The position numbers and the translations under genes are program-made. Positions 2,911 through 20,226 of a stretch of DNA of 32,092 nt are shown here, piece by piece. The stretch's first letter is position 1. Each line of letters opens with the position of its first letter. The DNA is from Clostridiales bacterium (GTDB lineage Bacteria; Bacillota; Clostridia; Peptostreptococcales; Anaerovoracaceae). The DNA is taken from the NCBI GenBank assembly GCA_012523915.1, contig JAAYSU010000073.1:1-32092 (forward strand), given 5' to 3'. The notes under the pieces were generated by a model. The model searched no databases, was not told the origin of the DNA, and saw nothing but the letters and a program-made list of their open reading frames with translations.

Positions 2911-2945
2911 AGTAGGTAATTGAAAAACAATTACCTACTTTTATT
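2911..2945. terminator. Rho-independent terminator, probably bidirectional, between convergent genes
   Basis: Perfect 12-bp inverted repeat AGTAGGTAATTG-AAAAA-CAATTACCTACT followed by TTTATTA; it separates the + strand ligase from the - strand cooS. Confidence 0.85.
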
Positions 2946-4854
2946 ATAGTCCCATTTTTTCTCTTTTTGAAAGAATATGAGCTTCGATATTATTTGCAAC
3001 TTCTACTGGATCGTCACCTAGTGCTATCTTACCGCCTGTCAAATCTTCAACATCCTCGGTTAAAAGCTTTACCAACTTTGGAGCACCTGTTATGAAAGGT
3101 GTTGGAGACAGATGGGTGTATGCCCCATATGCCACTGCAAAAATGCCGTCAATTGTAGCTTTTTGCTCCATCCATTCTGGTGCTGTAACTGCTATTGGAA
3201 GATCTTTAATATCTACATTAAGGTGTTCAGCAAGTGCGGTGACAAGCATTGATATTCTACCTGTGTCTGTACAAGTACCGAAACTCAACACTGGAGGAAT
3301 ACTTAAGTTTTCGCAAACAGATTTAAGTCCTTGGCCTGCTAATTCGATTGCATCAAGATTACACATACCTGCCACTTCTAGACCATGATTTCCACATCCT
3401 GCAGAAACTATGAGAATATCTTTATTTATCAGTTCATAAGCTAGGTTTACAGTATTCCAGTCCTGCGGACCATTTCTTAAAGAAGAGCAATTTACAAGTG
3501 CAACGATGCCCTTAATATTTCCCTTAGCAATAACATCTACAAGAACATCTAAATCATTGCCAATAGCTTTTAATACTGCTTCAGTAGAAAATCCTGCTAT
3601 TGCTTTCTGTATTCTTTTTGGCACCAAAGGTTTTACGTTACCCTTCCTCTTTTTAAAGTTTTCAATTGCTATATCAATACACTTATCCGCCATCTCGTCA
3701 ACTTTTTCCGGATAATAGGGTATTTCATGTTCACATCCCGGCACTCCAATAATAGTGCTTGCACTTATAAGTGCAAGCTGGTACTTTTCAGCATATTGAT
3801 CGATAGCAGGAGGAGAACAGTTTTCTTCCATTACAAGGGCATCGACTGTGCCTGTTGCTAGAAAAGGTTCTATGGAAAGCCAGTTATCCATTAGGCCTAC
3901 AAAGATATCATCCACTTCAAATCTTTGAAGCAGTTCTTGACCAGTTTCAATAGAGCCTATAATTCGAAGTCCCTTTGCTCCTGCTTTTTTTGCCTTTTCT
4001 TGATATTCTGGCATTTTAGCTTTCATCAGTGTTGCTACTCCGACCCAAGGTTGATGGCCATTAAACGCTATATTAACATAATCAGAGTCCATTATTCCTA
4101 GATCTACATTTACTTGGTGCGGCATAGGTGTACCAAAGAGTATATCTTGCGTCATCTCAAGTCCTATTTGTGCGGTATAGATTGTAGAGAGGCCTAATCT
4201 AAGCGCTTTTTTAGCTAAAGAAATATAATCACCGTCAACGTTTGTCAAACAGCTTGCAATACTATTTTCTACTTCATGTTGTACTCCTGATGGGTAAATA
4301 TTTAATTCTCTCCATATGGGGATACGTTTCTTAGGGGCAAAGGCTTCCACCATTATACTTTCTTTATCAGGGTTTGCCTTCATATCACTGTCAAGTGTAT
4401 CGGCTAATTTGGCAGCCATCTTGTTTATGTCCTGGTTAGTGTCTATTCCTAATTTCTCGCATAAGAATTTTAATTTATCTTTGTCAGTAATTTTGAATGG
4501 AGTTTTTCCTAAAGCAGTTGCTTTAAGTGTTCTAAATGCTTCATATGCATGATGGGCGTAGGTTGCAGCCCCCATTATATTCCTCATCAATAGATTTCTC
4601 ATAGCCATGGCATCCGGCCCTATGCCACAGACCCCTTTATCTGCACCTGCTTTATCACTGATCCGGCATGGGCCTTGGGTACAAAGCTGACAGCTAAGTC
4701 CTTCAAGGCAGAATTTACACCTGATTTTTTCCTGGCTATCCCATCTAGAAAATACACTGGACAGTCCATCCTCTTTTATTCTAATCAGCATTTCTTCTAC
4801 TGAGTCATGATAGCTTACGCGACCATCTTTTTTCTCTAAAACTTTTATAGCCAT
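2944..4854 (-). CDS. cooS: CooS-family anaerobic carbon-monoxide dehydrogenase-like protein (deviant, CooS-V-like; probably not a canonical CODH)
   Basis: 636 aa with CODH-type N-terminal FeS motifs (CKFC...SCQLCTQGPC...GVCG), H267 (NGHQPW), C346, C456 (NCSS), C487 (AGCGNH), C528 (GTCTD), K565. The position aligning with canonical Cys295 is Glu (SIETGQE). RBS AGGAGG before ATG. Confidence 0.9.
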   Translation of the reverse strand: MAIKVLEKKDGRVSYHDSVEEMLIRIKEDGLSSVFSRWDSQEKIRCKFCLEGLSCQLCTQGPCRISDKAGADKGVCGIGPDAMAMRNLLMRNIMGAATYAHHAYEAFRTLKATALGKTPFKITDKDKLKFLCEKLGIDTNQDINKMAAKLADTLDSDMKANPDKESIMVEAFAPKKRIPIWRELNIYPSGVQHEVENSIASCLTNVDGDYISLAKKALRLGLSTIYTAQIGLEMTQDILFGTPMPHQVNVDLGIMDSDYVNIAFNGHQPWVGVATLMKAKMPEYQEKAKKAGAKGLRIIGSIETGQELLQRFEVDDIFVGLMDNWLSIEPFLATGTVDALVMEENCSPPAIDQYAEKYQLALISASTIIGVPGCEHEIPYYPEKVDEMADKCIDIAIENFKKRKGNVKPLVPKRIQKAIAGFSTEAVLKAIGNDLDVLVDVIAKGNIKGIVALVNCSSLRNGPQDWNTVNLAYELINKDILIVSAGCGNHGLEVAGMCNLDAIELAGQGLKSVCENLSIPPVLSFGTCTDTGRISMLVTALAEHLNVDIKDLPIAVTAPEWMEQKATIDGIFAVAYGAYTHLSPTPFITGAPKLVKLLTEDVEDLTGGKIALGDDPVEVANNIEAHILSKREKMGL

Positions 4855-4929
4855 AATAACCTCCTCTTGTTAAAAAGTAGCATTTTTAGTTTGTGCTATA
4901 ATATTGAAATTATCCTGACTCAAAAATCA

Positions 4930-4958: not shown

Positions 4959-4986
4959 ATTACTTTGACAAAGGATGTGTATAAGA

Positions 4987-18897: not shown

Positions 18898-20226
18898 TTA
18901 CCAGCTACAACCATTACATCCGTTACGATTGAATGGAGTTCTTGATTTTTTATCAGAGCTTCTACGGTGATGGTCGCAGCCAAATATATCTAGATCTAAA
19001 TCGCAATCATCGTCAAAATCATCTTCATGCCAGCAACAATCATCATGTCGCCTGTCTACTCTGTCATCCCGACAGTCATCATCGCAACGGTGGTGTTTGT
19101 GATTCCTTTCTCTACGACGCTCACCATTACAGTCGTCACGTTTTCTCCTATCAACACAGAACAGATCACATAGTTCTCTTAGACTTAGTTCGTCATCTCT
19201 GTCGTGGCATCGTTTGTCACATGATTCAAAACCTCTAAATCCAAAACCCGGAATATTATTACAAGGATCATTGGATGATACTCCGCAGAAATCGGAGCTG
19301 TCTTCACGTTGTCCGCATGGCATTATTCCTTCTTTTGCATCTATTACAAATAGAGTCCTTCTTACTACTTGAACATGGACTGTAGGTTCAATAGCTACTG
19401 TAGTTTTGAGTGTTAATGAGCATTCTTCTGAATCCGGCTTGATGAATTCAGGGCAGCCATTTTGATTAGGCCTTCTTCTACCACACTTCACTTTTAATTC
19501 GGGGTTAACAAGTTTGATTTTACCACCAAAGCGGAAGGTTATTTCTGGCGAATTCCCATTTACAGGGCAGGGAATTGCAAGATCAGGTATAGCGAAGTTT
19601 GAGCAGCATCCACTGGGTACAGTAATTGGAGGCTCGTTTTCATTATTTCTGATCTTAGCTCTGAAGCAACAGGTTCTTCCACCGGTATTTACTGTACCTT
19701 CAATTACGATGGTCGCACGAAATTCCCAATTACATACATTTCTTAACAGGAAAAAGGCTTTAGTTGGAAGACCTTCTTCTTCACATATCTTGCTTTGTAT
19801 CTTTGGAATTATGCTTGATGCTCCAACTATATATCTACCGTTTTCAAACCTGACCGAATCAACTGTTTTGCCATCTAACAAAACTTGAGAAGGACTTATA
19901 TTTCCGGGAGGATTTGTCTCAATGTATTCTATTTCGGCATATGAATTTTCTATATTAAATACTGAGTTTTTATCTATGATGCAAGGCTCGCATTCGCAAT
20001 TGCGCTCGCAATCCCTTGTATCGATTGTAATGATAAAATCATCGGAATCATATGCCGTGTTTAGATTGAAAACCAAAGGACAGCTGGATGTTCTGTTAAA
20101 GGAAAAAACCTTATCTATATATACTAAATTTGGCTCCCTATCACTAAAGCAGATACCTTCAGTATCTATATTAGTGCCGCAAATCTCTGACAAATTAGAA
20201 TTGCATCTGTTTTTTCTCATTTTCAT
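18898..20226 (-). CDS. Hypothetical Cys-rich protein with low-complexity Asp/Arg/His/Cys C-terminal tail
   Basis: 442-aa ORF with about 34 Cys; RBS-like GAGAGG before ATG; tail HKHHRCDDDCRDDRVDRRHDDCCWHEDDFDDDCDLDLDIFGCDHHRR. No family recognised with certainty. Confidence 0.7.
   Translation of the reverse strand: MKMRKNRCNSNLSEICGTNIDTEGICFSDREPNLVYIDKVFSFNRTSSCPLVFNLNTAYDSDDFIITIDTRDCERNCECEPCIIDKNSVFNIENSYAEIEYIETNPPGNISPSQVLLDGKTVDSVRFENGRYIVGASSIIPKIQSKICEEEGLPTKAFFLLRNVCNWEFRATIVIEGTVNTGGRTCCFRAKIRNNENEPPITVPSGCCSNFAIPDLAIPCPVNGNSPEITFRFGGKIKLVNPELKVKCGRRRPNQNGCPEFIKPDSEECSLTLKTTVAIEPTVHVQVVRRTLFVIDAKEGIMPCGQREDSSDFCGVSSNDPCNNIPGFGFRGFESCDKRCHDRDDELSLRELCDLFCVDRRKRDDCNGERRRERNHKHHRCDDDCRDDRVDRRHDDCCWHEDDFDDDCDLDLDIFGCDHHRRSSDKKSRTPFNRNGCNGCSW

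Follow-up and report, generated by a model that had tools for sequence, protein, structure and literature searches.

The minus-strand gene at 2944-4854 of the window (the whole stretch of 32,092 nucleotides analyzed here) encodes a protein that is, judged by its sequence, a member of the already known CooS-V kind, structural group D-1, and it is preceded by a putative promoter of the type read by forespore sigma factors. Our explanation as a whole, to which we give a probability of roughly two in three, is that the product is a low-potential hybrid-cluster reductase made in the forespore under sigma-F or sigma-G and likely guarding the spore from oxidized nitrogen and oxygen species. The Cys-to-Glu swap in its active site is itself known, whereas the spore-type regulation appears new. 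The coding region and the residues relevant to its assignment are as follows:

2944-4854, minus strand: cooS-V open reading frame, a CooS-V-type, structural group D-1 hybrid-cluster protein of 636 aa (ORF list; TIGR01702, PF03063, PDB and tree)
4627-4719, minus strand: N-terminal cluster motifs, type III D-cluster Cys46/Cys49 and B-cluster Cys55/58/63/76 (alignment; definition in PMC6344411)
4054-4056, minus strand: His267, equivalent to CooS-V His259 (translation and alignment of relatives)
3946-3948, minus strand: Glu303, codon GAA (TTC on the plus strand), at the position of CODH-II Cys295 and equivalent to CooS-V Glu295 (alignment)
3817-3819, minus strand: Cys346, equivalent to CooS-V Cys338, with Asn345 (Asn337) directly before it (translation and alignment)
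3487-3489, minus strand: Cys456, equivalent to CooS-V Cys449 (translation and alignment)
3394-3396, minus strand: Cys487, equivalent to CooS-V Cys480 (translation and alignment)
3271-3273, minus strand: Cys528, equivalent to CooS-V Cys521, the persulfide-forming Cys according to PMC9311411 (translation and alignment)
3166-3168, minus strand: Glu563, equivalent to CooS-V Glu556 and counterpart of HCP Glu494 (translation and alignment)
3160-3162, minus strand: Lys565 (translation and alignment)

The protein scores 862 bits with TIGR01702 (CODH catalytic subunit, NCBIfam) and 502 bits with PF03063, and its 52.6 bits with TIGR01703 (HCP) fall below the curated cut-off of 360.8. Its best PDB match is 7b7q (854 bits; runner-up 442 bits), the structure of Carboxydothermus hydrogenoformans CooS-V (CODH-V; Jeoung et al., 2022, PMC9311411), to which it is 60% identical over 625 aa. 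CooS-V is also the top match in a fold search with an AlphaFold model (TM 0.87); since this model is weak (mean pLDDT 71.6, with the N-terminus and the ligand loops poorly predicted), it was used for the fold only and not for ligand-level superposition. The phylogeny within the CooS clades that the first-pass annotation had proposed places the protein and 7b7q together in one D-1 clade of 19 with a support of 0.993. A candidate CODH of Ca. Galacturonibacter was considered as a further CooS-V and rejected; its authors call that protein an HCP homolog.

Structural group D-1, among the clade D Ni-CODHs, was defined by Inoue et al. (2019, PMC6344411) through the exchange of the first C-cluster Cys for Glu, which Jeoung et al. 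regard as a derived character common to the CooS-V subclade (PMC9311411). The group is further marked by a type III D-cluster, by Tyr in the position of the acid-base His and by a Glu that precedes the Lys by two residues and corresponds to HCP Glu494 (PMC6344411). All of these features are present in the window protein: Glu303, the type III D-cluster (to which Cys41 belongs in CooS-V) with the spacing C46-X2-C49-X5-C55, Tyr99 aligned with the acid-base His of CODHs, and Lys565 with Glu563 two residues before it. Two Ni-CODH features are absent, the Cys295 ligand and the acid-base His being replaced by Glu303 and Tyr99, and the alignment reads GSIETGQE where true CODHs have GICCTGNE. Residue numbers exceed those of CooS-V by 8 until about residue 397 and by 7 thereafter, and counterparts of CooS-V His259, Glu295, Asn337, Cys338, Cys449, Cys480, Cys521 and Glu556 are all found. 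The first-pass annotation had placed His267, Cys346, Cys456, Cys487, Cys528 and Lys565 exactly where translation and alignment put them, and its location of Glu303, within GSIETGQE and with its codon at 3946-3948, is confirmed on the minus strand. This stretch and every ligand are invariant in 81 of 81 aligned sequences (the window protein and 80 relatives from Clostridia at 75-84% identity); Cys46/49/55/58/63/76, Tyr99, Asn345 and Glu563 are likewise invariant across these 80 relatives, and Glu at position 303 is retained in relatives down to about 51% identity. Because Glu occupies position 303 in all 81 sequences, the swap is a fixed trait, neither chance nor sequencing error. In one D-1-like gene at 52% identity (L339) the stretch is GSCETGQE, the Glu being directly preceded by a Cys; the alignment of this gene is poor in the C-terminal ligand columns, perhaps owing to a frameshift.

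The chemistry of CooS-V has been described in some detail. The enzyme contains no Ni but a [4Fe-3S-nO] hybrid cluster that rearranges upon reduction, catalyzes neither CO oxidation nor CO2 reduction, is slow in hydroxylamine reduction (kcat 0.13 per second), shows NO reductase activity not above background and, once reduced, opens a channel in the manner of a reductase (PMC9311411). From the identical ligands we infer that the window protein holds the same Fe-S-O cluster. The earlier proposal that the gene encodes a hybrid-cluster-type enzyme and not a CODH thus accords with an experimentally characterized protein sharing the Glu and all ligands; the interpretation was right, yet it had been established earlier for such proteins (PMC9311411). 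That proposal had treated CooS-V as a separate deviant case, which is mistaken: CooS-V has exactly this Cys-to-Glu exchange, a known D-1 mark (PMC6344411). The equation of Glu303 with both Cys295 and HCP Glu268, which it had put forward for testing, holds for the former only, since the HCP Glu aligns with Glu307, and Glu295 of CooS-V has also been reported not to align with the HCP Glu (Fujishiro and Takaoka, PMC10502027). The likeness to HCP is therefore functional and structural rather than a matter of residue-by-residue descent. The case for a role in hydroxylamine reduction, also suggested earlier, is weak, given the low kcat of CooS-V and its lack of NO reductase activity.

The second HCP-like Glu has a wider distribution. 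Three clade-D-like proteins (L102, L347 and L348) retain Cys at position 303 and yet possess Asn345 and Glu563. A CODH-like group (L105, L106, L108, L111, L117, L118, L120, L121 and L128), whose sequences fit clade C of Inoue, reads VGCTCVGQD and carries Tyr in place of the acid-base His, Gln instead of Lys565, Asn345 and Glu563, the last of which makes the predicted clade C-like active site partly HCP-like. Since Glu563 occurs in these Cys303-keeping relatives, it appears to be older than the Cys-to-Glu swap.

Around the coding region, three further features bear on expression:

4887-4915, minus strand: putative forespore promoter GGATAA-N13-GCACAAACTA, with its downstream end 32 nt from the ATG (17.2 bits with a model trained without the window)
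4860-4865, minus strand: Shine-Dalgarno sequence AGGAGG, 5 nt before the cooS-V ATG (read from the sequence)
2911-2939, both directions: hairpin terminator separating cooS-V from the AMP-ligase gene (sequence)

The two-way terminator makes cooS-V a single-gene unit. The gene is convergent with a thioesterase / XRE-cupin regulator / AMP-ligase series and divergent from ogt at 4975; the other neighbors encode a DNA alkylation repair enzyme, a DUF3842 protein and a PTS EIIC protein. The annotated neighbors also bear out the earlier statement that cooC, cooF and acs do not lie nearby. The thioesterase, XRE-cupin regulator and AMP-ligase genes stand in a row on the plus strand at 184-2902 and look like a separate acyl-CoA unit. 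Elsewhere in the window, the minus strand at 18898-20226 encodes a 442-aa protein with no Pfam match, the C-terminal third of which is strongly enriched in Asp, Arg, His and Cys; given a spore-forming host, it could belong to the spore surface. Across 80 cooS-V loci there is no conserved neighbor family, the commonest being an ABC-transporter-like protein at mixed positions, with clusters confined to one genus, which is in line with the finding that 64% of clade D genes are solitary (PMC13056359). The literature up to 2026 assigns no function to clade D 'CODHs', their gene neighborhoods have been described as uninformative on function, and C. autoethanogenum grew much as before when its clade D gene was deleted.

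Besides CooS-V, the genome from which the window comes (G000, 94.75% complete) encodes no Prismane-family protein, either HCP or CODH. The one further genome of the genus in the sample (G031, locus L122) contains only Prismane fragments; they lie at the end of a contig and adjoin an AMP-ligase gene, as cooS-V does in the window, and neither genome shows an HCP or a true CODH. Two genomes of the family sample agree in coordinates and scores with Clostridium aminobutyricum (L054) and Sinanaerobacter (L037), which assigns the window to the family of these two. Across 50 named CooS-V genomes, HCP is co-present in 47, and about 30 lack any additional CODH-type gene among the matches listed, which does not fit a published generalization that confines such genes to genomes with another CODH gene.

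The upstream regions of cooS-V genes are mostly not alignable, yet they share a common block near the start codon. A de novo two-block motif search of 67 deduplicated cooS-V upstreams (<60% alike, with the window excluded) yielded the motif gnATat - 13 or 14 nt - GgACATACTA. In C. difficile, a G preceding the -10 element is a feature of sigma-F promoters and an A following it one of sigma-G promoters; the spoVT promoter combines the two (PMC3789822). The cooS-V motif likewise has both the G upstream and the A downstream of the -10, and as a sequence pattern it is of the forespore sigma-F/sigma-G type; its conservation extends beyond alignable upstream sequence. The window site, in full GGATAA-TTTCAATATTATA-GCACAAACTA, fits the forespore pattern GNATA-N14/15-GGnnAnAnTA. 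Its score of 17.2 bits is higher than that of 99.7% of 392 neighboring-gene upstreams and was reached by none of 2000 of its own shuffles, and no other site on the two strands of the 32 kb window exceeds 14 bits. The gpr promoter of the same genome is of the same build (GAATAA-N14-GTACAAAATA), as are gpr promoters of the family. A strict consensus, GNATA-N13-16-GGNNANANT, matched just 5/80 and was rejected as too narrow; the trained two-block model was used instead.

At a 5% null threshold derived from shuffled sequences, 94% of cooS-V genes pass the forespore model, although these are largely its training set; held-out cooS-V genes pass in 11/20 cases in the class sample and 15/19 in the phylum sample, a few genomes of these two samples being present in the training set as well. 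Known forespore genes also pass the cooS-V model (SASP 50%, gpr 34%), gpr and sspA being established reporters of the forespore sigma factors (PMC3789829). Passing rates among control genes are 5% for HCP, 4% for SpoIVA and 6% for neighbors, and none of 29 other Prismane genes pass (CODH 0/14, clade C 0/9, HCP 0/6). Conversely, a model trained on gpr alone fails to recover cooS-V genes (9%) and a SASP-trained model recovers 46%, and the cooS-V motif is intermediate between the two. The signal declines with distance: of 20 D-1 genes at 58-63% identity, 5 pass, and of 8 at 51-55%, none. The cooS-V gene of C. hydrogenoformans, recognized because its product matches 7b7q at 626/626 positions, stays just below the threshold of 9.9 bits with a score of 8.9.

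The distribution of the gene follows that of spore formation. The source genome carries gpr, alpha/beta SASP and SpoIVA genes and so belongs to a spore-former, and gpr is present in all 40 CooS-V genomes examined. Within the family sample, the CooS-V genomes (G000, G031 by its fragments, G066, G071, G080, G128 and G133) are gpr-positive in 7/7 cases as against 40/149 overall (hypergeometric p=7e-5, uncorrected for shared ancestry); other Prismane genes are evenly spread there, in about 15/33 gpr-positive and 47/109 gpr-negative genomes. Within the class sample (n=391), 25/26 CooS-V genomes are gpr-positive as against 276/391 overall (p=0.001, again uncorrected for shared ancestry), the sole gpr-negative one being 80% complete. 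CooS-V is thus almost confined to spore-formers within the family and class samples. The gene occurs in only 25 of the 276 gpr-positive genomes of the class sample; because most spore-formers do without it, it is an accessory and not a core spore gene.

An alternative reading, which we consider unlikely, is that cooS-V is a vegetative gene with a sigma-A promoter and that its product serves in general nitrosative or oxidative stress defense, as HCP does, with no tie to sporulation. A stress role is known for HCPs and is assumed for clade D in reviews, and a sigma-A-like sequence, TTTACA-N16-GATAAT, does occur at 4936-4909, overlapping the forespore site. Such matches are expected by chance, however, 12 being seen in 2.2 kb where 7 are expected. 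The de novo search found no TATAAT box in cooS-V upstreams, unlike the HCP upstreams of the same genomes, where the sigma-A box was recovered, and an HCP-trained model places cooS-V at background; the persistence of the forespore-type motif past alignable upstream sequence argues in the same direction. D-1 proteins of archaea, which do not sporulate (PMC6344411), would fit a vegetative role, and their existence indicates that an enzyme of this kind is not bound to spores by nature.

Transcription by the mother-cell factors sigma-E or sigma-K is more doubtful still and would be a surprise; cooS-V would then be a sporulation gene of the other compartment. It is suggested by the -10 boxes CATACTA and CATATTA of Lachnospiraceae, which resemble the CATA core of mother-cell promoters, but the spacing between -35 and -10 and the GG before the -10 match sigma-F/G; furthermore, the sigma-E-controlled spoIVA genes do not rise above background under the cooS-V model, and a SpoIVA model in turn scores cooS-V near background. 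That the protein might be a true Ni-CO dehydrogenase tolerating Glu in place of Cys295 is scarcely credible. The TIGR01702 name, the CODH fold and the retention of five of the six C-cluster ligands speak for it; against it stand the CooS-V ortholog, which with the same Glu has neither Ni nor CO oxidation or CO2 reduction activity, and the C295E variant of CODH-II, which is Ni-deficient and inactive with CO (PMC9311411), as well as Tyr99 in place of the acid-base His and the lack of CooC or a partner gene nearby.

For the preferred reading, a forespore-made hybrid-cluster reductase, the following course of events may be envisaged. The gene would be transcribed alone in the forespore from its sigma-F/sigma-G promoter, as the promoter sequence and the co-occurrence with spore formation suggest. 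The product would be a homodimer in which Glu303, in place of the C-cluster Cys, gives an active site with a morphing [4Fe-3S-nO] cluster and not a Ni,Fe C-cluster, as is presumed from the identical ligands of the ortholog. A small electron donor would feed this site through the D and B clusters, and the low-potential reductase might clear traces of hydroxylamine, NO-derived species or peroxide, the substrate being speculative, from the developing or germinating spore. Protection of the spore or germinating cell by such a reductase is the most economical reading, albeit a speculative one. In the CODH of D. vulgaris, the type III [2Fe-2S] D-cluster has been linked to oxygen tolerance (PMC9311411), and such a cluster would suit spores exposed to air.

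More generally, CooS-V-type enzymes of spore-forming Clostridia and related Bacillota are quite probably forespore proteins, a branch of the CODHs turned into a spore redox enzyme. No link of a CODH or CooS to forespore or spore programs was found in the literature searched, in which subscription journals are sparsely covered, and cooS is absent from the main text of the C. acetobutylicum and C. difficile sporulation papers. A forespore promoter, if true, would account for the solitary genes, for the lack of effect on growth with CO and for the sporadic, spore-former-bound distribution. It suggests a job for CooS-V and makes the functional question directly testable, and it supports not labeling such genes as CO dehydrogenases in surveys of acetogenesis or CO metabolism.

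Among known systems, the closest to the window protein is CooS-V itself (7b7q). The two share eight cluster-site residues together with Glu556, a type III D-cluster, nearly the same active-site stretch (GSIESGQE in CooS-V) and the want of any tie to C1-metabolism genes; they differ in lineage, in an N-terminus about 8 aa longer in the window protein, and in the promoter, which is only weakly forespore-type in C. hydrogenoformans but clear in the window. Structurally, the protein is no different from structural group D-1 as described, although a spore link is absent from that description (PMC6344411). HCP has the same Prismane fold family and a His/Glu/Cys/Glu ligand set that functions alike, but it is only about 20% identical to the window protein, its Glu aligns with Glu307 and not Glu303, and HCP genes of the same genomes have promoters of the sigma-A type, unlike cooS-V. 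KatX of Bacillus subtilis is a protective enzyme of the forespore. It is an unrelated protein, and the analogy would lie in the role alone, that of a detoxifying enzyme placed under the control of forespore sigma factors.
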